Assembly: GCA_029261715.1 (NCBI GenBank)
Contig: JAJDAT010000025.1
Location: forward strand, 186,001-250,000
Direction: 5' to 3'
Source of the DNA: Nitrospinia bacterium
GTDB lineage: Bacteria > Nitrospinota > Nitrospinia > Nitrospinales > JAJDAT01
Length of the DNA stretch: 64,000 bases
Below are positions 47,644 through 62,494 of this stretch, piece after piece. Under the pieces are notes generated by a model, which was not told the DNA's origin, did not search any database, and worked only from the letters and a program-made list of their open reading frames with translations. The translations under genes and the position numbers were made by a program. Each line of letters opens with the position of its first letter. Within the stretch, counting starts at the first letter, position 1.

Positions 47644-48711
47644 TCAAAACGTTTTGTTTTTGATTTTGTATACTTGAGCTAGGATTTCGGCGATTGCGCG
47701 GAATAGATTAGCCGGTACCACTTGGCCGATGTCTACCGTTTTATAAAGCGTTCGCGCTAGTGGTTTGTTCTCAACTAAAGGCACGTCGCTTTTCTTCGCA
47801 AGTTCCCGAATTTTTGCCGCTAAATTATCGGCCCCTTTTGCCACTACAATTGGCGCCTGGAATTTATCTCTATCGTATTTCAACGCAACTGAGATATGTG
47901 TTGGGTTGGTTACTACCACATCGGCTTCCGGAACAGCCGACATCATACGCTTTCGCGCCATTTCTAATTGGGTAGATCGAATTCTTTGTTTGACATGTGG
48001 ATCGCCTTCTGTTTCTTTTCTTTCTTGTTTTACTTCTTCTTTCGACATTTTAATTTCTTCGCCATGCTGAAAAATCTGGAACGACACGTCGGCCAAAGCT
48101 AGAACAATCATGAAAACTAATGCTTTGAGCATAATTTCTATCATGACCTCTCCCATAAAAAACAGAATTTGGCCTACAGAATATTCCATGAGGGGAGGTA
48201 TTTGGTCCATTCGACTTTTAATTGTTATATAGCCGATAAAAGCTAGCGCGCCTACCTTAAACAATGATTTCATTAATTCAGAAACAGAATTTTTTGAGAA
48301 TATTCGACCAAATCCTTTCATAGGATTTAATTTAGAGAATTTGGGCGATAAGGGTTCCATCGAAAAATTTAAACCCTTGGTTTGCATTACATTTGCGGTA
48401 ACCCCAGCAACCATGATAGCTCCTAAGATAGGAGCCATGATTGCGAACATTTGCGTTAACACCCACTGCATAAAGACGTACATGTCGTTAACGGTTAAAG
48501 GGATGGCGTAAGATTGAGTCATGATGTGCCTCCAGGTTTCCATCATTTTGAGAGTTCCCTGGTGCCCGGCAAACATAAAAGATAAGATGGCGGCAAGCAA
48601 AACGAAAGTAGAGGTCAGTTCGCGACTATTCGCAAATTGTCCTTTTTCTTGGGTCTCGCGGACCTTTTTGGATGTCGCCTCCTCAGTTTTTGAATCTTTG
48701 TCTTCTGCCAT
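47644..48711 (-). CDS. flhB: Flagellar export switch protein FlhB
   Basis: FlhB is the export-gate subunit that switches substrate specificity from rod/hook to filament proteins. Four membrane segments lie in the first 215 residues. The cytoplasmic domain has the self-cleavage motif NPTH (about residue 265) in VVTNPTHISVALKYD, and the typical KSDVPLVENKPLARTLYK. Length 355 is normal. It is the last gene of fliO-fliP-fliQ-fliR-flhB, 36 bases after fliR. flhA is not in the window. Confidence 0.96.
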   Translation of the reverse strand: MAEDKDSKTEEATSKKVRETQEKGQFANSRELTSTFVLLAAILSFMFAGHQGTLKMMETWRHIMTQSYAIPLTVNDMYVFMQWVLTQMFAIMAPILGAIMVAGVTANVMQTKGLNFSMEPLSPKFSKLNPMKGFGRIFSKNSVSELMKSLFKVGALAFIGYITIKSRMDQIPPLMEYSVGQILFFMGEVMIEIMLKALVFMIVLALADVSFQIFQHGEEIKMSKEEVKQERKETEGDPHVKQRIRSTQLEMARKRMMSAVPEADVVVTNPTHISVALKYDRDKFQAPIVVAKGADNLAAKIRELAKKSDVPLVENKPLARTLYKTVDIGQVVPANLFRAIAEILAQVYKIKNKTF

Positions 48712-48747: not shown

Positions 48748-49524
48748 TTAAAAAGTTTGCATGATGCCAATAAGATTATTTGGCAGCTCGTAGAGATTGC
48801 GTTTAAAGACCATTCCAAAGTAAGACATTGAAAAATAGAACAGGATAAGTCCCATTCCAATTTGTAAAGGAAAGGCAACGATGAATACGTTCATTTGAGG
48901 TACGGTCCTAGCGACTAAGCCAAGGGCAACGCTGATGAAAAACAAACCCGCCACTACTGGAGCTGCCATTTTTATAGCTACAATAAATCCGGATGTGAAA
49001 ACATCCATGTAGATTTTCATGGATCCGCCTGAGAAATTAAACGTGTTTGGGTTGATTAATTCAAAGCTTTGAACCGCCGCATTGATTAAAAAATGATGGC
49101 CATCTAAAGCTAAAAAGAACAAAATTGAAATGATATTTAAGAACTGAGCTGTAATAGATACTTGTGATTGAGTTTGCGGATCAATAACGTTAACCACGCC
49201 AAATCCCATTTGAAAGTCAACTAAAGTTCCCGCAATTTGTACTGAGATAAAAATCATCCGTGCCATATAAGCGATTATAAGACCTATGGATAATTCCGAT
49301 AACATGTAGATGCCAAAGCTAAATATTCCTTTGGGTTGGGGAAGAGGAATGCCATCCAATAAAGGAAAAATCAGAAAGCTCATGACTAAGATTAGACCTA
49401 TCTTCAATTTACCTGGCACCGATGCGCTACCAATAATTGGCGCATAAAGAAACATGGCTCCAATCCGAATGAAAACGAAAAAAAACTTTTCCATTTCTGC
49501 ATAATTCAGGTTGAAGAGGTCCAT
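48748..49524 (-). CDS. fliR: Flagellar export protein FliR
   Basis: FliR is an integral membrane part of the flagellar export gate, assembling with FliP and FliQ. The 258-residue protein has about six membrane segments and the family stretch FVFIRIGAMFLYAPIIG, RMIFISVQIAGTLVDFQMGFGVVNVIDP. It starts four bases after fliQ and is followed by flhB, the standard order. Cellular location is the inner membrane within the basal body. Confidence 0.96.
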   Translation of the reverse strand: MDLFNLNYAEMEKFFFVFIRIGAMFLYAPIIGSASVPGKLKIGLILVMSFLIFPLLDGIPLPQPKGIFSFGIYMLSELSIGLIIAYMARMIFISVQIAGTLVDFQMGFGVVNVIDPQTQSQVSITAQFLNIISILFFLALDGHHFLINAAVQSFELINPNTFNFSGGSMKIYMDVFTSGFIVAIKMAAPVVAGLFFISVALGLVARTVPQMNVFIVAFPLQIGMGLILFYFSMSYFGMVFKRNLYELPNNLIGIMQTF

Positions 49525-49528
49525 CGCT

Positions 49529-49798
49529 TTATTTTATGTAGTTTGGAATATTTAAGAAGATGTTTTCGGTAAAACTCAACATCAGTTGGAACAACCAAGG
49601 GAAAAATAAAAGAAGCGCTAAAAATACCGCCAATATTTTAGGAATAAATGTCAACGTTAACTCTTGAATAGAAGTAACAGCTTGAAATATAGAAACCGCT
49701 AAACCTGTAACTAGCCCAAAGCCCAACATGGGAGCGGAAAGCAATAAAGTGGTTTTCATACTTTCCATTGCAAAACTGATTATGAATTCTTGTGTCAT
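49529..49798 (-). CDS. fliQ: Flagellar export protein FliQ
   Basis: An 89-residue protein with two membrane helices and the family sequences GLVTGLAVSIFQAVTSIQELTLTFIPKI. It forms the lateral part of the FliPQR export gate. Length and position between fliP and fliR are exactly as expected. No odd features. Confidence 0.96.
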   Translation of the reverse strand: MTQEFIISFAMESMKTTLLLSAPMLGFGLVTGLAVSIFQAVTSIQELTLTFIPKILAVFLALLLFFPWLFQLMLSFTENIFLNIPNYIK

Positions 49799-49829: not shown

Positions 49830-50588
49830 CTAAGCAAAACTTTTCATCAAAGACCCGACAGTTAAATACCAACCGTCCACCATGACGAACAACATGAGTT
49901 TAAAAGGTAAAGAAATTAAAACAGGAGGTAACATCATCATACCCATTGATAGCAAAACGCTAGCTACCACCATGTCTAAAATTAAGAATGGGATATAAAT
50001 TAAAAAACCTATTTGAAAAGCCGTTTTTAATTCGCTGATTATAAAAGCGGGAATCAAAGCTTGAATTGGAATGTCTTTGGACGTTTTTGGTTTTTCTCCG
50101 CTTGATAAATTGATAAAGAGAGCTAAATCTTTTTGCCGAGTTTGCTTTGCCATGAAAGCTTTAATTGGAACTTGCGCTTTATCCATCGCCTCGGTTTGAG
50201 ATATTTGTTCGTTCAAATAAGGTTGAAGCGCATTTTTATTTACGTCCGTCCAAACGGGTTCCATTATGTAGAACGACAGGAACAAAGCTAAACCAACTAG
50301 AATTTGAGTTGGCGGTGTTTGCTGCGTACCCATAGCTTGTCTTAAAAATGACAAAACGATGATTACCCGCGAAAAGGAAGTCATCATAATCAAGAATGAT
50401 GGCATCAACGTCAGTATCGTTAAAAGGAATAGAACTTGTAGAGAGCTTGATACCTTTTCTGTTTCGCTGGAGTCTTCCATTCCAAATTGAATGGTCGGTA
50501 AAGAAACTGCCGAGCTATCGGCGGCAAGACCAAATAAAACGACATTTAACGCCAAGATTCCGATTAAATACTTTGCTAAGGTTTTCAT
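49830..50588 (-). CDS. fliP: Flagellar export protein FliP
   Basis: FliP forms the core ring of the export gate. It has a signal-like N-terminus (residues 1-27), then membrane segments and the signatures TSFSRVIIVLSFLRQAMGTQQTPPTQ, PAFIISELKTAFQIGFLIYIPFLILDMVVASVLLSMGMMM (given as separate blocks in one stretch). Length 252 is normal. The fliO stop and the fliP start share a base (TAATG), indicating translational coupling. Confidence 0.96.
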   Translation of the reverse strand: MKTLAKYLIGILALNVVLFGLAADSSAVSLPTIQFGMEDSSETEKVSSSLQVLFLLTILTLMPSFLIMMTSFSRVIIVLSFLRQAMGTQQTPPTQILVGLALFLSFYIMEPVWTDVNKNALQPYLNEQISQTEAMDKAQVPIKAFMAKQTRQKDLALFINLSSGEKPKTSKDIPIQALIPAFIISELKTAFQIGFLIYIPFLILDMVVASVLLSMGMMMLPPVLISLPFKLMLFVMVDGWYLTVGSLMKSFA

Positions 50589-52009
50589 TAAGCGGTCCGT
50601 AGTCTTCCTAGGTTTTTTTGAATTGAGTTAGCTGCCTTAGAAATAGAAGGCTTCGGGTCGCTCTTTTCTTTCGAAAATTGTCGAACGTAGTTTGCGAAAG
50701 CTTGGTTATCTACTTTTTTTGCCGGTTTCTTTGTTGGTACGGAAGCAACCGGAGTAGCTTTGTCTTTTTTTACATTTTTCCAGGCGCTGGAAATGGTTGC
50801 GTTTGGCGCAGTTTTAATTTCTTCAATTTTTTCTTCGTCTTCGATTTTGGAGAGTAGGGATATATTGTCGTTAGAAATGCCTAAGACTAAAATTTCTCCT
50901 GCAACTTCCACTAGAGAGACGCTTTTTCTAGGACCTAATACACCTGTTCCCAAGATTTTAATTGTTTGCGTATTTCCGCCCATCAAACCATTTTTTAAAA
51001 CAAACTTTTTAAAAACATAAAAGACCATGAACATTACGCCTAAAACCAAGGCTAGGGAAGAAAACATCTTGCCCGCTGTTTCAGGCATCCCAGGCGCAGA
51101 ACCGTTAGTAAGGTCTCCGTCGTAGTCCAAAAACTTTAATGGTTTGTTAGAAGAATCGGTTTGTTGAATAGATTCTCGTCTTTTTGGTTTAGAAGTTTCA
51201 GGAAGTGGATCCTTTCGGCTAATAATAGATTGCAATTGATCTTTATAAGAAATGTCGGCAACTTGTTCGACTTGAGCGTTAGACTCTTCTGATTGTCTTT
51301 CAGTTTGTCTTTGAACTGCTGGTTCCGTTGAAACTTGTTCATCAGATATATACGAGTCGTTAGCGGCTAAAGTTTTTTTTGCTTGATCGATTTCTCTAAG
51401 GATATCGTCTAATACGTCTTCATTAGATTGTGTCGCTTGGATGGCTTTAGGCGTTTCGTAAACTTTAGTAATTTCATTTGTTTTTAAAGTTTTAGGGGGA
51501 GTAACAACTTTTGGCGTTTCTCTAACAATATTTTCCTTTGGGAAACTATCGGCAATATCTTTTGTCATTGCGTAGTTTTGAGAGTTTGTAGAGATTGGCG
51601 CCCCTATATTTATGTTTAGAAAACGACCAGCCTTTTGAATTTGGAATTGTTCTCTTAAATCGATATTTTCATCCGTTAATACGAATCGAACTCTAACCGT
51701 TTTTGGATCTATTTGAGCGACAAAAACCTCTGAAACAATTGAGCTATCAATTGGGAAAGTTTGTTTTGCTGGATCGATATAAGCATCTGGAAAATCCAGT
51801 TGGATGGATTTTTTGAAAAACGTTGGACCGGTAAAATACTTAATAGGTTTAGTAAACTCTATATTGTAAAAAGACTCGGTTTCTGTAGTTTCAGTAACAA
51901 CATCTTCCAAGAAGTTTAAACCTTTCAAGTCCACCATCGCTTCAGCTCCAAAAGCCGTCAATAAAATGATGATTAAGGTTCCAAATTTAATTGTGATTTT
52001 GTTAATCAT
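50588..52009 (-). CDS. fliO: FliO with an AMIN-like N-terminal domain
   Basis: FliO helps assemble FliP rings. The FliO domain is at the C-terminal half: a membrane segment near residues 315-335 (FSSLALVLGVMFMVFYVF) followed by IKILGTGVLGPRKSVSLVEVAGEILVLGI. The first 150 residues after a signal peptide (ending GAEA) look like an AMIN domain, with paired strands (FYNIEFTKPIKYF, KSIQLDFPDAYI, VRVRFVLTDENI, RFLNINIG) of the kind that binds cell wall. A Ser/Gln/Lys-rich linker joins them. Ordinary FliO is about 100-150 residues; this is 473. First gene of the flagellar export operon, preceded by a sigma-54 promoter match. Confidence 0.85.
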   Translation of the reverse strand: MINKITIKFGTLIIILLTAFGAEAMVDLKGLNFLEDVVTETTETESFYNIEFTKPIKYFTGPTFFKKSIQLDFPDAYIDPAKQTFPIDSSIVSEVFVAQIDPKTVRVRFVLTDENIDLREQFQIQKAGRFLNINIGAPISTNSQNYAMTKDIADSFPKENIVRETPKVVTPPKTLKTNEITKVYETPKAIQATQSNEDVLDDILREIDQAKKTLAANDSYISDEQVSTEPAVQRQTERQSEESNAQVEQVADISYKDQLQSIISRKDPLPETSKPKRRESIQQTDSSNKPLKFLDYDGDLTNGSAPGMPETAGKMFSSLALVLGVMFMVFYVFKKFVLKNGLMGGNTQTIKILGTGVLGPRKSVSLVEVAGEILVLGISNDNISLLSKIEDEEKIEEIKTAPNATISSAWKNVKKDKATPVASVPTKKPAKKVDNQAFANYVRQFSKEKSDPKPSISKAANSIQKNLGRLRTA

Positions 52010-52081
52010 GGCTAACCTATTATTTTTAAATGAGTTTCAGTTGTCAAAAATCCGACATTTTTTATTCTGATAACTGTAAAT

Positions 52082-52096
52082 GCAAGGTGTGTGCCA
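52082..52096 (-). promoter_or_regulatory. Sigma-54 (-24/-12) promoter of the fliO operon
   Basis: On the minus strand TGGCAC (52096-52091), five bases, then TTGC (52085-52082) followed by A match the RpoN consensus TGGCAC-N5-TTGCW completely. It lies 73 bases before the fliO start codon. Flagellar export and basal-body genes are sigma-54 dependent in many bacteria, so function is plausible. An activator protein would be needed; an inverted repeat lies at 52167-52206. Confidence 0.75.
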
Positions 52097-52166
52097 CTTT
52101 TTATGATGCTAAAAGAGATATTTTTTTACTTTAGAGCTTATGGATTGAGGAGGGCGGATTATTGGA

Positions 52167-52206
52167 ACCATGGCATGGGAATTAAACAGAATTCTCATGC
52201 CATGGT
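52167..52206. promoter_or_regulatory. 17-bp inverted repeat upstream of the sigma-54 promoter
   Basis: ACCATGGCATGGGAATT (52167-52183) pairs with AATTCTCATGCCATGGT (52190-52206) with one G-T mismatch and a six-base centre. It sits about 70-125 bases upstream of the sigma-54 box, the normal distance for an enhancer where an NtrC/FleQ-type activator binds. It could instead be a transcribed hairpin or mobile-element end; no other copy was noticed in the window. Confidence 0.55.
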
Positions 52207-52454: not shown

Positions 52455-53705
52455 CTAATTCTTCTGTCTTATTTGATTCTTCTTTTTCATTTGTTGCCCC
52501 ATGCGATTCTTTCGACCCTTAGCAGATTCTGAATAAATAGGATTACGTAATCTGTTGATACTTCCAACTGGCTGATGTTCAGCTAAAGAATGCCAAGGGC
52601 TGAGTTCTAAGTTTTCGCAAGCTTCGTCGTTAGCGCGTGTGTCAAAGTTTTGCTTTGGTATCATTATTTGGGCTACTTTTGTATAGGAAATGCCCTTTTT
52701 AAATTTACCAGGAAATTCTGCAAGGTGTGTTTGTTCTTCAATCCATTCAAAGGTCGCATCTTCCAACCCCAGAATTTCTGAGAAATTGCCCTCGGGTATT
52801 GGCGGAACTTGGACAAGAAAATCAAAACAAGCTTCCCCTTCATTAAGACTTTTTTTCATTGCTTGACGAAGGTAATCGGGAGATGGATCGTTAGGAGTTA
52901 CCTGCGCGGTTTCTGCACAAGGTTTTGCTGAAAACTTCATTACTTGATTGTCCCCAAATAAGAATGGGGCTGCAGAAAAATATTGGGTTTCTAAAGGATC
53001 GGCAAGAGGCGTGTTAGAAAGAACGCCTATTATTTGAGCTTCTCGAAAGTGTTTTGTTGGTTTACCTTCTTTACTGAACCCTAAAAATGTAAGGACCGAA
53101 CTTGGTATTTCTCCCTTTAGTTCTAGTTCGGCAATTTGGAGATTTGTGATTTCAAGATAATCTTCTACGTTTTTGAACGCAAAAGTAGGTTGGTTGATCA
53201 TTAAAAAATCCTGAGTTCCTTTTTGGCGCGGAATAGACAGTACTTTTTTTCCTAATATTTTTTCCACGTTGGGAATTTGAATAGCCATTCCTCGACTTCT
53301 AGAACTTTTTCTTGTTTTATCTATGTCGTCGCTTATTTCCGTTGTGGCATTAGAAAACCTGATCTTGACGTTTTCATAGGTATGGCCGGGCTTAGAAAAG
53401 AGTCCTACTTGTAATTCCTTTTTAATATCTTTATTAACAGTGAATTTTGCGTTGACGCACCCATGCGCTTTGGGATGGACATTTCTCAGTTTTCTTGCGT
53501 TCTTACTGGAATAACGTAGCGCTTGTAATTTTCTCTGAGCGTTTGCGATTTTGTTTATATTATTTTTTTCGCCCGCAGGAGGCTTGTCGAACTTGGTGAG
53601 TTTTATGTCGTGGGTATATTGATCGGCAAATACATTCACGCCAAGGCTAAGGGAAATAGAGATTAAAAAAGCCGTAATAATTGTACGATTTATTTTATGT
53701 GGCAT
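52455..53705 (-). CDS. Exported catalase-fold heme protein
   Basis: A signal peptide (about residues 1-27, IITAFLISISLSLGVNVFA) precedes a catalase-like domain. The segment LRNVHPKAHGCVNAKFTV (about residues 73-90) resembles the distal-His region of catalases, and KIRFSNATTEISDD followed by RSRGMAIQIPNV matches RFS...RGFAVK. Near the C-terminus SPWHSLAEHQPVGSINRLR is typical of the catalase-like family found next to cytochromes. The usual proximal heme tyrosine motif is not obvious, so activity is uncertain. It lies 53 bases downstream of the di-heme cytochrome gene and is probably co-transcribed. Confidence 0.8.
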   Translation of the reverse strand: MPHKINRTIITAFLISISLSLGVNVFADQYTHDIKLTKFDKPPAGEKNNINKIANAQRKLQALRYSSKNARKLRNVHPKAHGCVNAKFTVNKDIKKELQVGLFSKPGHTYENVKIRFSNATTEISDDIDKTRKSSRSRGMAIQIPNVEKILGKKVLSIPRQKGTQDFLMINQPTFAFKNVEDYLEITNLQIAELELKGEIPSSVLTFLGFSKEGKPTKHFREAQIIGVLSNTPLADPLETQYFSAAPFLFGDNQVMKFSAKPCAETAQVTPNDPSPDYLRQAMKKSLNEGEACFDFLVQVPPIPEGNFSEILGLEDATFEWIEEQTHLAEFPGKFKKGISYTKVAQIMIPKQNFDTRANDEACENLELSPWHSLAEHQPVGSINRLRNPIYSESAKGRKNRMGQQMKKKNQIRQKN

Positions 53706-53758
53706 GATAATCTTTCCTTATTTATTCAGAAAAGTGGATGATCGTTAATCTTTAGAGG

Positions 53759-55675
53759 TCATTGTGTTTTCAAATATTCAATGAGCGCATACCTTTCGGA
53801 AGGTTCAAGATAACGACCTATATTTCCATTTCCTTTTGTTCCATAGTTAAACTCATGACCTTTATTAGAGTTCCCGGTAATAGTTGTATCAAACTTGTAT
53901 CCGCCTCTAAATTCACGGGTTTCAAATCCAACTTTTTCAGGGTTGAACATTTTACTTCCTAGGTAAAAGACTTTTGGTCTTTCACTTATAGGAGATAAGA
54001 TATCGTAAAGGTTAGGTACCGAGCCGTTATGCAGAAACGGCGCTGTTGCCCAAATTCCATTTAACGGGCGAGCTTTATAAACCGATTCTGCCTGAATAAG
54101 GTTTTCCCTGTAGCCATTAAATTTATTTCTTTCCTGCTGAGGAATATTATTTGATTCATACCATCGGTTGTCGATGTTTACTATGACATTGCCAAGCGCT
54201 ACGCCCATTCCCATATTCTTTGTTACTGGTTCCCATTTATTGGGTTCGCTTCCAGGAGTTGTTAAGGCCCCTGCATATCCAATCTTAGCGTTAATAAAGT
54301 TATCCAATAAAGTGGAATCAGTTCCGATATCTTTGGCTTGTATTTGTTGAACTTCTAATAATGCGATTCCTTCTTTGCGGTAGCCTTTAATCCAAAATTT
54401 ATTTGTCCAATGTTTGGCTTTGGAGTATTCATCTTGTGGTTTCAAAGTTTTCAAGTCTGCCTTCAGCTCTTCCAACGGAGGAAGATGGCACCCTTGGCAA
54501 AGTTCTTTATAAAGCTTTTTGCCCTGAGCGGCTTTTTTCTCATTTATCTCCGGAAATAGTTTGTTAGGCCATTTAGGCGAAGTTAAACCGCCAAATGGTT
54601 TTTCTCCGGCGAGCCACTCTTCAATATGGTGTAAATTTTTGATATTTGCCGAGGATTTATACAGTAACTTTTCGTCTACAAAGTTCGCGCTAGCCTTTAC
54701 TCCCAGAGCTTCTCCAGCGTTACGAACCATAGGTTGGTGAATGGAGGCATTATATTGCACCCAATCGAACCATGAAGCGTCCCAGATATGTGGAAAGTTT
54801 ACCGGGGCGTTGTTCGGCACAAAGTTTGATGCCGCTCTTTGTTCTTTGTCATTAATTAATAAATTGGAGCCAAATACTTGATTGAGAATGCGGTCTAACG
54901 CGTCGGTACGGGAAAAACCTCCTTGAAATTTACTAGGATCTAGAGGTTTCGGAAGTTGTTTCATCGTTTTATTGTAGAGTGTGCTTTCTTTAATTCCATT
55001 ATTCACTACCGCTTGTACTATTTTTTTTAAGGCTGCAGCTTTTTGCTCCGTATACTCTTGGCCTTGGCGTTTAAAAACACGTTTGGCGAAGCGTTCGAAT
55101 CTGCTGTCTATATTAGCTGTTAAACCCAAAGCCAGACCTGTTGCGTTTGCAAACAACCCAGGATCAACCATCCCTGGACCGCCGTCAATCCGGAGTGCAT
55201 GAGTTTCATCGCCTTTTTTGAAGTGGAGATCCCCAGTGTGGCAGGCGGCGCAAGTGAGTCCAATCACGGTCATCTTCTGTCCGGTATTAGAATCGACAAA
55301 TCTGTCGTCTTTGGCAAAACCTATTGGGAGGTCGTCGGGGCTCTTACCGGAAGTATCCAAAATAAAACCGATCCTTCCTAGATACTTTGGGTCAGATAAA
55401 AGGGGTTGCTCAAAAAATATAGATGTGGGTTGCTCCAAAGAAACAAACCAATCGTAAGGCATTATTCTAGTTCCTTGAGATATATGGTAGAAATTTTGTC
55501 TCGACCCCACTCCCCATTGGTTAAGATAATGGGTCTTATCAACTTTTTGGTATTTTGGAGTTGCTTCAACGATTTTGTCAATTTGTTCGCCAGTCTCCAC
55601 TAATTTAGCAATTGACGAACAGCTTGTAATCATAAGAGTAATTAGCAAAATTCCAATGTGATGAAAGCGAAGCAT
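53759..55675 (-). CDS. Di-heme c-type cytochrome lipoprotein, RoxA/MauG-like
   Basis: A lipoprotein signal with lipobox TSC (Cys19) is followed by a large periplasmic protein with two heme sites: CAACH (about residue 142) and CQGCH (about residue 393). A segment LNGIWATAPFLHNGSVPNLYDIL near the C-terminus is the hallmark of the di-heme cytochrome c peroxidase/MauG superfamily. Length 638 and the two widely spaced hemes are close to RoxA rubber oxygenases. The catalase-fold gene follows directly. Whether it is an oxygenase, a peroxidase or another oxidase cannot be told from sequence reading. Confidence 0.82.
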   Translation of the reverse strand: MLRFHHIGILLITLMITSCSSIAKLVETGEQIDKIVEATPKYQKVDKTHYLNQWGVGSRQNFYHISQGTRIMPYDWFVSLEQPTSIFFEQPLLSDPKYLGRIGFILDTSGKSPDDLPIGFAKDDRFVDSNTGQKMTVIGLTCAACHTGDLHFKKGDETHALRIDGGPGMVDPGLFANATGLALGLTANIDSRFERFAKRVFKRQGQEYTEQKAAALKKIVQAVVNNGIKESTLYNKTMKQLPKPLDPSKFQGGFSRTDALDRILNQVFGSNLLINDKEQRAASNFVPNNAPVNFPHIWDASWFDWVQYNASIHQPMVRNAGEALGVKASANFVDEKLLYKSSANIKNLHHIEEWLAGEKPFGGLTSPKWPNKLFPEINEKKAAQGKKLYKELCQGCHLPPLEELKADLKTLKPQDEYSKAKHWTNKFWIKGYRKEGIALLEVQQIQAKDIGTDSTLLDNFINAKIGYAGALTTPGSEPNKWEPVTKNMGMGVALGNVIVNIDNRWYESNNIPQQERNKFNGYRENLIQAESVYKARPLNGIWATAPFLHNGSVPNLYDILSPISERPKVFYLGSKMFNPEKVGFETREFRGGYKFDTTITGNSNKGHEFNYGTKGNGNIGRYLEPSERYALIEYLKTQ

Positions 55676-56436: not shown

Positions 56437-58809
56437 TTGGCTTTCTACAGTTTTTTGAAGGTTTTCGAACAAAAAGAAACTGAAGAGCTAAAAGTTTGTG
56501 TTTTAAAGGATTTCTCCAAAGACAGGTTTCTGCAAAGATTTTGCGGGGAAAGGAATCTTCGCTCAGTGCAACGATTAGTTTTTCGCGGACTTATTAAGTT
56601 TATGCCGTCGCTTAAAGTTTTAATAAAAATGGTTATAGCGGCGAGTGTTTCTTTCGTCTTTTGGGGATATGGGCAAACAGCCGAAGTTGGAAAACCGAGA
56701 CCTTCGGTTATCCAAGCTGACGTCGTTGGTTTTTTGCAATGGCTTGTATTAGATTCAAATCAACCTCAAATTTCTCCAAATAAAAATAAATCTCAAGGTT
56801 ACGAACCTGATAATTCAAAAGAGTCTCCGTTAACGGATAAGATGATCCGTCAAGCTCGATTTCTTTTGGAAAATATGCCCGCAGATTCGAAAAAATCCAA
56901 TCAACCAGAGAAAAGCCTTCCTGAAAAAGACTGGGATATTCCTCAATCCACACTTCAAAAACCAAACAGAAAAAAGGTTACACCAAAGCGAGAAGCTCCA
57001 AAAGTGGCCGAGCAAAATAGCAAACAGCCTGAGAGGAAGTTTTCTGAACCTATTAATGATAGTGTTGAAACGGAAGTTGAAGAGAAAAAATCTATTTTTA
57101 GTGGTTGGTTTTCAGGGAGTAAAACCGTACTTGCTAATGCTTCTAATTGGGCAATGGGAAAATTGGGAGCTAGTAATTTGACCTCGAAAACAGGCGCCGA
57201 AGTTGGGATGTTGGAAGACTCAGGTTTCCCAACTAAGTCCACATCAAATAAGGACAAAATAAACGATGGGCGCAAAGTAAAAGACCCTGGCGCTGGTTCA
57301 ACCTTCTTCGTTCGATTGATTAAGATTAAAGGAAACACTGTTTTCTCTGATGCTACTTTAGCTCCTATAGTGGATGTAGGAGAAGGCTTGGATATGACTC
57401 TTGGAATTTTGAATCTGTATAGCCAAGAAATTCGAGCGTACTATCTTTCAAGAGGATATTTTTTAGCCAAAGCCTTTGTCCCAAAACAAGAAATTGTGGA
57501 TGGCGTTGTCAAAGTAGTCGTTGAAGAAGGTAAGATCGGTAATATTAAAGTTACTGGCAACGAAACAATCCCGACTAAAGATATTTTAAAAAGATTTAAA
57601 AAATTCTCAAAAGAGAGAATTCCTAACGAAAAAACTTTAGAAAGCGCTCTTTTGGAACTCAACGATATAATAGGAGTTCAGGCTAAATCCTTAGTTAAAC
57701 CAGGAGAGACTCCGGGGACCTCCGATTTGGAAATTGTTATTGAAGAGCCTTTGCCGTATACGTTTGCTCTCGATGGCGATAACTTTGGATCTGAGTTTAC
57801 GGGAAGAAATCGGTTTGGAATTACGGCAACTGCCGGAAATGTTCTTCGATTAGCGGACCAGTTTGCGATAAGAGGGGTCGAGTCTGATGAAGATCAAAAA
57901 ACATTTCAAGCGTCTTACTCAATTCCCGTTAATGATAGCGGTACTTCTGTTGGATTTTCGTATATTTTCTCTGAGCAAACTTTAGGTTTAGATTTGGCGG
58001 CTTTAAATGCGGGCGGAGAAACCAATATTGGAAGTTTAGAATTGGTCCAGCCTTTATACCGGTCCAGAAAAGGTATTATAAAGGCGCGAGCTGGTTTTGA
58101 TTTTCGAAAATTTAAAAACTTTGTTCAAAATCAAACGTCAAGTGAAGACGAACTAGTTGGCGGATTTTTAGGGATTTCTGGTGATTATAAGGATGAATTT
58201 CAAGGGCATAGTTATTTCGATGTTTCGGTGCATCGTGGTTTTAACGAAACAAGCGAAAACCGGGCTCTTGCTTCAAGAATCCGTGGTGAAGGGGATGTGA
58301 CTGTTGGAGCGTATAGTTTCTCACGGACGCAAAATGCTGGGTTTTGGGACAGTTACTTTGTATTAAAGTCGCTTGGGCAAATTGCCAGCGCAAGAGCTCT
58401 TGCCCCTGATCTTTTTTATTTAGGAGGATTCAGTTCTATTCGAGGTTATCCTCTAGCGGACCAGTCGGGCGACCAAGGGTTTTCCGGAACGTTAGAATAT
58501 GTTGTACCCATTCCGGGGGTAGTTAATTTCTTAGGAGACCTATATAATTTAAGAGATCACATTTCCATTTTCGGTTTTGTCGACCACGGCAAAGCAATTG
58601 TTCTGAATAATCAACCAGGTGAATCAGACGCGTCTATAACTGGCGCTGGAGGTGGATTTCGGATGACATTGCCACAAGATGGCTCATTTCCTTTTATTGG
58701 AGTAAACGCAAGTTATGGTCTCCCTGTGAGAGGTCCAGATCCGTCGGATAGAACTAATGGTATTTGGTACGTTAACGGTTATATGGCTTTTAGGTTTGAC
58801 GATGCTTAG
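56437..58809 (+). CDS. Two-partner secretion outer-membrane transporter (TpsB, ShlB/FhaC family)
   Basis: TpsB proteins are outer-membrane beta-barrels that pull a TpsA adhesin through the membrane with periplasmic POTRA domains. A signal-like segment (KMVIAASVSFVFWGYGQTAE) lies near residues 64-83. A Lys/Pro/Ser-rich extension of about 200 residues follows. POTRA domains span about 285-440 (FVRLIKIKGNTVFSDATLAPIV, then GKIGNIKVTGNETIP). The barrel ends with GGFSSIRGYP (conserved RGY/F loop) and the final strand YMAFRFDDA. The TTG at 56437 follows a promoter and Shine-Dalgarno; the ATG at 56602 is an alternative start giving a normal signal peptide. The fecR gene overlaps its end by eight bases. 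Confidence 0.9.
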   Translation: MAFYSFLKVFEQKETEELKVCVLKDFSKDRFLQRFCGERNLRSVQRLVFRGLIKFMPSLKVLIKMVIAASVSFVFWGYGQTAEVGKPRPSVIQADVVGFLQWLVLDSNQPQISPNKNKSQGYEPDNSKESPLTDKMIRQARFLLENMPADSKKSNQPEKSLPEKDWDIPQSTLQKPNRKKVTPKREAPKVAEQNSKQPERKFSEPINDSVETEVEEKKSIFSGWFSGSKTVLANASNWAMGKLGASNLTSKTGAEVGMLEDSGFPTKSTSNKDKINDGRKVKDPGAGSTFFVRLIKIKGNTVFSDATLAPIVDVGEGLDMTLGILNLYSQEIRAYYLSRGYFLAKAFVPKQEIVDGVVKVVVEEGKIGNIKVTGNETIPTKDILKRFKKFSKERIPNEKTLESALLELNDIIGVQAKSLVKPGETPGTSDLEIVIEEPLPYTFALDGDNFGSEFTGRNRFGITATAGNVLRLADQFAIRGVESDEDQKTFQASYSIPVNDSGTSVGFSYIFSEQTLGLDLAALNAGGETNIGSLELVQPLYRSRKGIIKARAGFDFRKFKNFVQNQTSSEDELVGGFLGISGDYKDEFQGHSYFDVSVHRGFNETSENRALASRIRGEGDVTVGAYSFSRTQNAGFWDSYFVLKSLGQIASARALAPDLFYLGGFSSIRGYPLADQSGDQGFSGTLEYVVPIPGVVNFLGDLYNLRDHISIFGFVDHGKAIVLNNQPGESDASITGAGGGFRMTLPQDGSFPFIGVNASYGLPVRGPDPSDRTNGIWYVNGYMAFRFDDA

Positions 58810-59839
58810 ACCATCTAAAAAAATAAACCGAATTTTTTGGAATAGAGTTTCTTGCTTAGCTTTTTTATTCTGTTTAATTACAGGAGACGTAAACTCTTGG
58901 GCGGAAGAAGAGCCTGTAGGAAAAGTAATCGCCATTAGCGGTAAAGTTGAATTTGCAACTCTTGAGCAAATAGAAGGAAAAGAACAAAAAGGATTGATGA
59001 GTTTAGTAAAGTTTTCTTCGTGGAAAACAACTGAATTTCAGCAATTGGTTTATGCAAGAGATGTTTATAAAACAAAACGTGGAAGTCGCTTAAAAATACT
59101 TTTTAATGACAATAGCCTCATAGCTTTGGGACCAGGTTCTACCATGAAGGTCCAGTCGTATCTCTTTTCTCCAAAAGAAAAACTAAGGAGAACGACAATT
59201 GATATAGCCCAGGGTTTTGCCATGTACATAATCAACAAATCTCAAAAAAATCCAAAATCTAGTTTTAAGATTGTCAGCCCAGTGGCAAACTTATCCTCAA
59301 GGGGAACCCAAGGATATATAAGTTCTTTTGCAGGAGAAACTATTGTAGCGAATCAAGCTGGGTCTATGGCAACGCAAAACAGAGATCCGGGAGTTCCCGG
59401 TTCTGTTATTGTTGGTCCAATGTCTCGCACTATTGTTGAATCAGGCAAACCGCCAGAATTGCCAACTTCATTGAGCGGAGGTGAACTTTCTGCAATACGA
59501 ACTGGTATTTTGGGTAGAGTTGAAGCTTTTTCAGGCGGATCGAATCGATCATTGATAAGACTGCAAAAAGAAAACGTGGATTCAGAAGATGAAGAAGATA
59601 TTCGCGATTCTATTGAATCGTCTTCTGCTGCGGATGAAGAAGAAATTGATTCTAGAAAAGATTATTTAGACGCTTTGTCTGAAGGGAGAGAGGGGTTTGC
59701 TTCTCCAGGCGGAAATGGTCAAAATCAGTTTTTTTTAGGAAAAGTCAGACCGGGTGATGTTGGATATGGAAACGCTCAAGATTATGCATCTTTCAACGAA
59801 CCTTTCGATCCAGGTATTTTAAGCGCTTGTGGACCTTAG
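58802..59839 (+). CDS. Exported FecR-domain protein with a C-terminal cysteine
   Basis: A signal peptide (about residues 15-33, SCLAFLFCLITGDVNSWA) is followed by a FecR domain: VGKVIAISGKVEFATLEQ, VYKTKRGSRLKILFNDNSLIALGPGS, and a strand-rich region to residue 180. A disordered acidic stretch (VDSEDEEDIRDS) and a Gly-rich tail complete the 345 residues. The only cysteine of the mature protein is third from the end (SACGP). The ATG overlaps the tpsB stop; a further upstream in-frame start would spoil the signal. Between tpsB and tpsA, it probably acts in the periplasm or on the surface with them, not in classic FecI/FecR iron signalling, as no sigma factor gene is present. Confidence 0.85.
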   Translation: MLRPSKKINRIFWNRVSCLAFLFCLITGDVNSWAEEEPVGKVIAISGKVEFATLEQIEGKEQKGLMSLVKFSSWKTTEFQQLVYARDVYKTKRGSRLKILFNDNSLIALGPGSTMKVQSYLFSPKEKLRRTTIDIAQGFAMYIINKSQKNPKSSFKIVSPVANLSSRGTQGYISSFAGETIVANQAGSMATQNRDPGVPGSVIVGPMSRTIVESGKPPELPTSLSGGELSAIRTGILGRVEAFSGGSNRSLIRLQKENVDSEDEEDIRDSIESSSAADEEEIDSRKDYLDALSEGREGFASPGGNGQNQFFLGKVRPGDVGYGNAQDYASFNEPFDPGILSACGP

Positions 59840-59863
59840 TTTTTTTCAGGGAATTTTAACTGT

Positions 59864-62494
59864 ATGTTGATGACTAACTTAATGAAAAGATGGTTTCGAA
59901 CAACGGTATTGACTGTTGGGTTTCTTATTTTTTTGTTAGGAGGTTTTCCCTGCATTTTATTTGCGTTACCCCTCGAAGGGCAGATCACGTCGGGAGACGG
60001 CAGTTTTCACCAGCCGAACAGTAATGAGCTAATCATTCAGCAAAATTCCGACAGACTAATCTCTCAGTGGCAACAATTTAATATTGGAACGAATGAAAAA
60101 GTTCAGTTTCTGCAACCTAATTCAGACGCGATTGCGTTAAATAGAATTACCGGTGGAAACCCAAGCGAGATTTTAGGTCAATTACTAGCTAACGGTAAAA
60201 TATTTTTACTGAATCCTTCCGGAATCTTTTTTGGACATAGCGCACGTGTTGATGTTGGCGGGTTGATGGCTTCAACTCTTAGTTTAAGCGACAATAATTT
60301 TTTAGACGGAAATTATTCTTTCGTTCAAGATTTGAATAGGCCTTTAGCTTCTATTATTAATGAAGGAATTATCAACGCTAATGGCGGTTATGTTGGGTTG
60401 TTAGCGCCTTCGGTCGTTAATAAAGGAACGGTTGTCGCTAATTTAGGATCAATACATATGGCTTCTGGGGAAGCGGCTGTTTTAGATTTCACTGGCGACG
60501 GGCTAATTAACTTTGAAATAACTCAACCGGTTAGAGGAGACGTTATAGACAGGTCAGGCAACGTTACGCAAGATCGCGTGATCAATTCAGGAACGCTTCA
60601 GTCGGATGGAGGTCATGTGGCTCTTTCAGCGCGCGACGCTGTAAAGGTTTTTGATAACGTTATTAGTCATACGGGTTCTATTCAAGCTAGAACTGTTGAA
60701 AAAAGAGAAGGAAGAGTTTTCTTAAACGGCGGCGACCATGGAGTAACTAACGTAACGGGAAGAATCGACGCTTCCGGGTTAGATGGAGACGAGCGTGGAG
60801 GAAGGGTTCATATCTTAGGAGAACGGGTTGGACTGTTTGATAATGCAAGTGTTGATGTTTCGGGAAATAATGGAGGAGGTACCATCCTCATTGGAGGAGA
60901 TTATCAGGGAAAAGGTGAAGTTCCAAACTCTCTAGTATCTTATGTAGACAAGGGTGTTGTTTTGAATTCTAGAGCTGTTAATTCGGGAGATGGCGGAAAA
61001 GTGATCGTTTGGGCAGACGATACTACCCGATTTTTTGGAACTGTTGATGCGCGAGGTGGTGATTTATCAGGCAATGGTGGTTTTGTAGAGGTATCTGGTA
61101 AAAACGTTCTTTCTTTTCAAGGCGATGTTGATACCACCGCTAAAAATGGATCTACAGGAGATTTATTGCTAGATCCGGGCGATATCACAATTGCCGATGG
61201 AGCGGGAACTGATAGTTTAAGTAGTGGAGCCTTAACTGTTGCTTCTGGTACTTCGACTATTTTTGAACAAAATTTAGAAAGCGTTGCAGCAACAACCAAC
61301 ATTACCTTAGAAGCAGGCGCAAGTATTACCGTTGCAGATTTGTCTGACGATCTTCTTGACCTGCAACAAACATCTGGAAATTCGGTAACCTTCACAACCA
61401 CTGATGAAGCTGGAACAATTTCTTTCGCAGACGTATTTGATGAGATTAGGACTCAAGGCGGTAGCATAACCATGAACTCCTCTGGCGGAACGGTGAGTGT
61501 TGGAAAACTTACTTCAAACGGAGGAGCGATTACTCTAAATGGAGCGGATGGAGTTACTGTTAACGGCGACATCAGAACAGGTGGCGGCAATTATACAGTC
61601 GATGCTGACAGTGACAATGGCAGTGTGGGAGTTTATACTCAGGGTGTTAATAAGACAGTACGGACTGGAGGTGGCGCAGTCAATATTATTGCATCTGATG
61701 TTGATTTGCTAAACGGGTCCGCTAATATTTCAGGTTCTACAACTAACTTCAAATCTATAATTACAGGAAGTGGTTTTACAGATGGAGGTTCAGTAACCTT
61801 TAATCAATCCTTCAGTGGAAAGACTATAGGCATAGGAGAATCTGCCGCAAGTGATTTTAATATTGATCAGAACGAGCTAGCTAGCATCCGAACTCCTACT
61901 TTGAATATTGGAAGCAATGGGATCTCCGCAGATGTAACAATTGGTACATCTGATTTTGGATTAAAGGCTACAACGATTACTTCTGGTTCATCAATAACGC
62001 TTTCCGGGAGTAAAGTAATTTATAGAAAAGACCTAGCGTTGACAGCTAAAGATAACGTTACCATTTCTAACGGTTCGAGCGTCGAAGCGCATATTTCTGG
62101 GAAGAACGCTAGCTTTTCGGCGACAGCCGACTCTGATCAATTAAATGGAGGTGGATTTTCTTTGGATGGAACGAGTTCTATCACCACCCAAGGCGGTAAC
62201 GTGACCTTAATAGGAAATACGGTAACCAATAGTGGAACGATAACAACCAATGGAGGTACTTTAACCACTACCGAAAGATCTACAGGAGATGGTTCCAGTA
62301 GTAGCACTTCGAGTCCTAGTTCTGTTAACGAAACCAGCTCTTCAGTTTCTGGAGTGAGTTCAAGCTCATCATCATCCAGTAATTTACCAATACCATTAAC
62401 CCCGGAAGAGATAAGGGCTATTGATGAACGTAATAATGTTCAGTTTGTAAGTAGATTTTTTAAGAAGCTTGGCGATAACCCCGGCGGTTGTTAA
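59864..62494 (+). CDS. Two-partner secretion adhesin (TpsA, filamentous hemagglutinin-like)
   Basis: The partner protein of TpsB. A signal peptide (to about residue 37, ending CILFALP) is followed by the TPS secretion domain (LEGQITSGDGSFHQPNSNEL, FNIGTNEKVQFLQPN, NRITGGNPSEILGQL, FLLNPSGIFFG). Beta-helix repeats rich in Gly, Asn, Thr and Ser follow to residue 800. A Ser-rich linker (about 805-840) leads to a conserved-looking tail LPIPLTPEEIRAIDERNN, ending GGC. The mature protein has one cysteine, its last residue. AGGGA at 59848-59852 precedes the ATG. Length 876 is small for a hemagglutinin. Confidence 0.93.
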   Translation: MLMTNLMKRWFRTTVLTVGFLIFLLGGFPCILFALPLEGQITSGDGSFHQPNSNELIIQQNSDRLISQWQQFNIGTNEKVQFLQPNSDAIALNRITGGNPSEILGQLLANGKIFLLNPSGIFFGHSARVDVGGLMASTLSLSDNNFLDGNYSFVQDLNRPLASIINEGIINANGGYVGLLAPSVVNKGTVVANLGSIHMASGEAAVLDFTGDGLINFEITQPVRGDVIDRSGNVTQDRVINSGTLQSDGGHVALSARDAVKVFDNVISHTGSIQARTVEKREGRVFLNGGDHGVTNVTGRIDASGLDGDERGGRVHILGERVGLFDNASVDVSGNNGGGTILIGGDYQGKGEVPNSLVSYVDKGVVLNSRAVNSGDGGKVIVWADDTTRFFGTVDARGGDLSGNGGFVEVSGKNVLSFQGDVDTTAKNGSTGDLLLDPGDITIADGAGTDSLSSGALTVASGTSTIFEQNLESVAATTNITLEAGASITVADLSDDLLDLQQTSGNSVTFTTTDEAGTISFADVFDEIRTQGGSITMNSSGGTVSVGKLTSNGGAITLNGADGVTVNGDIRTGGGNYTVDADSDNGSVGVYTQGVNKTVRTGGGAVNIIASDVDLLNGSANISGSTTNFKSIITGSGFTDGGSVTFNQSFSGKTIGIGESAASDFNIDQNELASIRTPTLNIGSNGISADVTIGTSDFGLKATTITSGSSITLSGSKVIYRKDLALTAKDNVTISNGSSVEAHISGKNASFSATADSDQLNGGGFSLDGTSSITTQGGNVTLIGNTVTNSGTITTNGGTLTTTERSTGDGSSSSTSSPSSVNETSSSVSGVSSSSSSSSNLPIPLTPEEIRAIDERNNVQFVSRFFKKLGDNPGGC

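Follow-up and report, generated by a model that had tools for sequence, protein, structure and literature searches.

The window, which is the whole 64,000-nucleotide stretch of DNA analyzed here, comes from a Nitrospinota-like genome of 5.33 Mb, and its nearest named relative is an uncultured Nitrospinaceae. The phylum Nitrospinota includes marine nitrite oxidizers. The genes fliO, fliP, fliQ, fliR, and flhB form a tightly spaced set on one strand, downstream of a predicted sigma-54 element and of a short box in the fliO leader, and a long palindrome lies farther upstream (Table 1). In most of the relatives examined, fliO is preceded by genes that correspond to fliL-fliM-fliN in size and order. 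In the present genome, fliL is 83 kb from fliO on the same contig, and the region upstream of fliO (52455–55675, minus strand) contains a catalase-like ORF, named by eye and with no Pfam match, together with a RoxA-like cytochrome. The predicted promoter and box are, as judged from the sequences, retained through this upstream rearrangement. Beyond this region, on the plus strand (56437–62494), is a group of two-partner secretion-like ORFs whose translations, read by eye, are outer-membrane transporter-like, FecR-like, and filamentous haemagglutinin-like.

Table 1. Features of the fliO promoter region and of the genes that follow it, in window coordinates
Feature	Position	Strand	Remarks
Sigma-54 (−24/−12) element TGGCACACACCTTGCA	52081–52096	−	Sequence and position kept in 46/46 assessable relatives
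Box GTCGGATTTTTGAC	52043–52056 (about +15 to +28)	−	TTGAC spacing in 47/47 fliO promoters; proposed FleQ-type activator site
Palindrome	52167–52183 / 52190–52206		17-nt arms with a single mismatch around a 6-nt loop; not conserved as a promoter element
fliO	50588–52009	−	473 aa; Pfam FliO, E 3.5e-13
fliP	49830–50588	−	Pfam FliP, E 2.2e-84
fliQ	49529–49798	−	Pfam Bac_export_3
fliR	48748–49524	−	Pfam Bac_export_1
flhB	47644–48711	−	Pfam Bac_export_2, E 5.9e-126

The element TGGCACACACCTTGCA matches both the TGGCAC-N5-TTGCW consensus and the GG-N10-GC core perfectly, in keeping with the full RpoN consensus reported upstream of fliO in the preliminary description, and is separated from the fliO ATG by 71 nt. 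If the C of the GC (52082) is taken as −12, a start is predicted at 52070, which coincides with the start near 52070 proposed in that description and would give a leader of 61 nt. Within the window, TGGCACACACCTTGCA is the sole match with one mismatch or fewer, 0.74 such matches being expected by chance. Genome-wide statements in this study are based on pattern and family searches; these located two perfect TGGCAC-N5-TTGCW matches in the genome, as compared with the three or so that we estimate on the basis of its base composition. Because the only other perfect match lies inside a methyltransferase-like coding ORF, a perfect match is not significant by itself, and it was rejected as proof of a promoter.

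The order was sampled with 61 genomes, of which 52, including the present one, have a detectable FliP, and 46 relatives have contigs that reach far enough past fliO to be assessed. All 46 contain a GGYAY-N5-NTGCW element at a narrow position before fliO, and GG, A, and TTGC are invariant across the 47 fliO promoters obtained when the present genome is added. A search for rpoN, proposed earlier as a check, found a single open frame whose 494 residues include an intact RpoN box, ARRTVTKYRK. Because the element is conserved in every assessable relative and a single intact rpoN is present, its assignment from sequence as the sigma-54 promoter of fliO-P-Q-R-flhB is close to certain, and this part of the preliminary description is well supported. 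That the unit is expressed "early," as was also suggested there, is something that we only infer.

The preliminary description placed the regulatory site upstream of the promoter and did not include a second conserved element, which is located downstream of the predicted start, in the leader. TTGAC occurs 32–35 nt past the −12 element in each of the 47 fliO promoters, and the other half-site reads GTC in 27 of these promoters and GTT in a further 8, giving GTC-N8/9-GAC (GTC-N8-GAC in the present genome). Identity between genera is 64% in the box as compared with 34% in the spacer of 20 nt and 26% in the upstream DNA. The GTC half is absent in some genera and also at fliL of the present genome, where only the TTGAC half is clear.

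In the present genome, the composite of sigma-54 element and TTGAC is found, with a spacing of 33–34 nt, at fliO, fliL (named by Pfam), and flhA (named by reading its translation), and one more site with a shorter spacing precedes a small ORF of unknown function. The flgC promoter has TGGCATGGCATTTGCT plus GTCAAAAAATTGTC at the same offset as in fliO. Across the 61 genomes the composite gave 135 matches as compared with 19 for the reversed control, and a tighter version applied to 77 genomes gave 62 versus 2. The genes behind 19 non-fliO sites from five relatives, named by reading translations, are flgC (two), flgB (two), flhA, fliL, one encoding a GGDEF protein, and several that are conserved but of unknown identity; at the flgB sites, where the first codons overlap TTGAC, its presence may be due to chance. 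Small or coiled-coil proteins of unknown function, which fall into three families (L265/L272, L266/L271/L275, and L269/L274), lie behind the composite in several relatives and may represent additions to the flagellar regulon; a search of NCBIfam with one member each of the first two families gave no specific match. When the composite was sought in other phyla, among 80 named FliP loci that included one from Nitrospinaceae (L107), it was found only in the latter and in one probable chance match.

A FleQ box, GTCaNTAAAtTGAC, has been published for Pseudomonas, with sites at fliL, fliE, and flhA, together with a caution that the motif does not predict sites reliably on a genome-wide scale (PMC6120874). 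The 47 fliO promoters match this consensus partially, at a mean of 9.0 of 13 positions as compared with 7.8 of 13 in shuffles; GTCGGATTTTTGAC matches at 9 of 13, which is not significant by itself, and the flgC box at 11 of 13. Because the resemblance is only partial, the proposed assignment of the box to FleQ leans on combined evidence, namely the identity of the recognition helix described below, the half-sites, their position, and the set of genes that they precede.

The genome encodes about 17 clear sigma-54 activator domains. A search for a FleQ-, FlrC-, or NtrC-type activator, suggested in the preliminary description, identified both FleQ-like and FleSR-like regulators. The FleQ-like activator (C14:134290–135324; L191:8287–9324, minus strand) has 345 residues and comprises an AAA+ domain that begins at residue 6 and includes a GAFTGA loop, followed by a Fis-type HTH. 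Its best solved relative is FleQ (E 2.6e-92), with which it has the recognition helix RTTLVEK in common, and its gene adjoins a flagellin-like gene. The N-terminal degenerate receiver domain is absent from the protein in the present genome and in the relatives, and we therefore refer to it as FleQ-like rather than as FleQ proper. It is kept in 53 of the 61 genomes of the order; because three of the four complete-looking genomes with no detected FliP also carry the gene, its co-occurrence with flagella is not clean. In the KExxxRN sequence of FleQ, the N that follows the post-Walker A arginine is replaced by A or C in the FleQ-like activator. Control by c-di-GMP may therefore differ in the FleQ-like protein.

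Comparison of sequences establishes the presence of the predicted promoter element and box at a fixed spacing, of related boxes at flhA, fliL, and flgC, of rpoN, and of the receiver-less FleQ-like protein; we infer the binding of this protein to the box, the activation of transcription by such binding, and the timing. In the mechanism that we consider probable, the RpoN promoter would start the fliO-P-Q-R-flhB transcript near 52070, a FleQ-type activator would bind the GTC-N8-GAC box just past the start, and the activator bound at +15 to +28 would remodel the closed complex of RNA polymerase and sigma-54 with no far-upstream enhancer. A broader proposal, which we put forward tentatively and hold to be somewhat less than an even prospect, is that in the Nitrospinota of this order fliO, fliL, flhA, and flgC are run by a receiver-less activator derived from FleQ through a single box phased at ~+15 to +28, and that the order has kept this downstream-only enhancer architecture while receiver-dependent control, and perhaps control by c-di-GMP as well, has been removed.

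The main alternative is that the downstream box is real but could be bound by a FleR/FlrC-like response regulator. A FleSR/FlrBC-like pair, consisting of a PAS-histidine kinase and a receiver-AAA+-HTH protein, is encoded directly before flgC-fliF-fliG-fliH-fliI, and downstream sites are known for Vibrio FlrC, which also speaks for such a binder. However, the recognition helix that equals that of FleQ belongs to the FleQ-like activator, and the half-sites of the box are of the FleQ type, so that we regard a FleR-like binder as unlikely. It is somewhat less likely still that the conserved leader serves instead as a second promoter with TTGAC as its −35 element, as a site for a repressor, or as an RNA element. 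The sequence TTGACA-N17-AATAAT (52019–52047, minus strand), which overlaps the box and occurs in the present genome only, matches 11 of 12 sigma-70 positions, but transcription from it would start almost on the ATG, and TTGAC was ruled out as a conserved −35 element since no conserved −10 hexamer follows it in the relatives. With respect to an RNA element, no Rfam family scored above its cut-off, and we judge the 3-bp GTC/GAC stem too weak for a leader hairpin.

The palindrome pointed out in the preliminary description as an inverted repeat of 17 bp with one mismatch upstream of the promoter is real and spans −97 to −136 relative to the predicted start. No other short-loop inverted repeat in the window is as long, arms of at least 16 nt arose in none of six block shuffles, and its RNA hairpin has a predicted energy of −22.4 kcal/mol (z −5.7). 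Long hairpins are not rare in this genome, as 258 kb contain 13 short-loop inverted repeats whose arms reach 14 or more. One of these, with 26-bp arms and a 3-nt loop (L106:18287–18341, 55 nt), is longer than the palindrome at fliO. The arm has no other copy in the genome at one mismatch or fewer, for which reason a dispersed repeat was rejected, and its single match at two mismatches is in an unrelated place. The palindrome was not found at the fliO promoters of the relatives, nor was its half-site found upstream of the other flagellar promoters of the present genome, where a search for copies had been proposed. An intrinsic terminator was rejected, with no T-run on either strand and an empty terminator scan, as was a known RNA family, with only a chance miRNA match far under the cut-off. 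The earlier proposal that the palindrome is an enhancer, from which an activator dimer would reach the promoter by looping of the DNA, agrees with the classical position of such sites and with a repeat so far from random, but it is very improbable because the palindrome is private to this genome, the relatives' fliO promoters have no conserved upstream activating block, and the upstream region is rearranged here. The palindrome may be a hairpin at the end of the upstream gene's transcript, a lineage-private operator, or unrelated sequence. The case is a caution that the most visible palindrome is not necessarily the enhancer.

Downstream enhancers have been regarded as a peculiarity of a small number of flagellar promoters. 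A box present throughout an order at one fixed distance would make activation of sigma-54 from inside the transcribed region testable, and would offer an initial rule, at the level of sequence, for the Nitrospinota flagellar regulon. The proposed arrangement is close to that of the FleQ/RpoN promoters of Pseudomonas (flhA, fliE, and fliL), which share with it a sigma-54 promoter, basal-body and export genes, an activator of the FleQ family, and sites downstream of the RpoN element (PMC6120874); the title of Jyot et al. (2002), as cited in that paper, describes FleQ enhancers as "atypically downstream" of the RpoN site. It differs from the Pseudomonas system in that the box of the present order is at one fixed offset and matches the FleQ consensus only partially, the activator of the present genome lacks the receiver domain, and fliO has its own promoter. 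As in the FlrA-FlrC and FleSR hierarchies of the polar flagellates Vibrio and Pseudomonas, the present genome encodes, beside flagellar genes, an activator like FleQ/FlrA as well as a FleSR/FlrBC-like pair. The FleQ-like activator also resembles receiver-less activators of the PspF type, which consist of AAA+ and HTH domains with no N-terminal regulatory domain and have a similar length, but its sequence scores 313 bits with FleQ as compared with about 204 bits with PspF and is thus nearer to the former.
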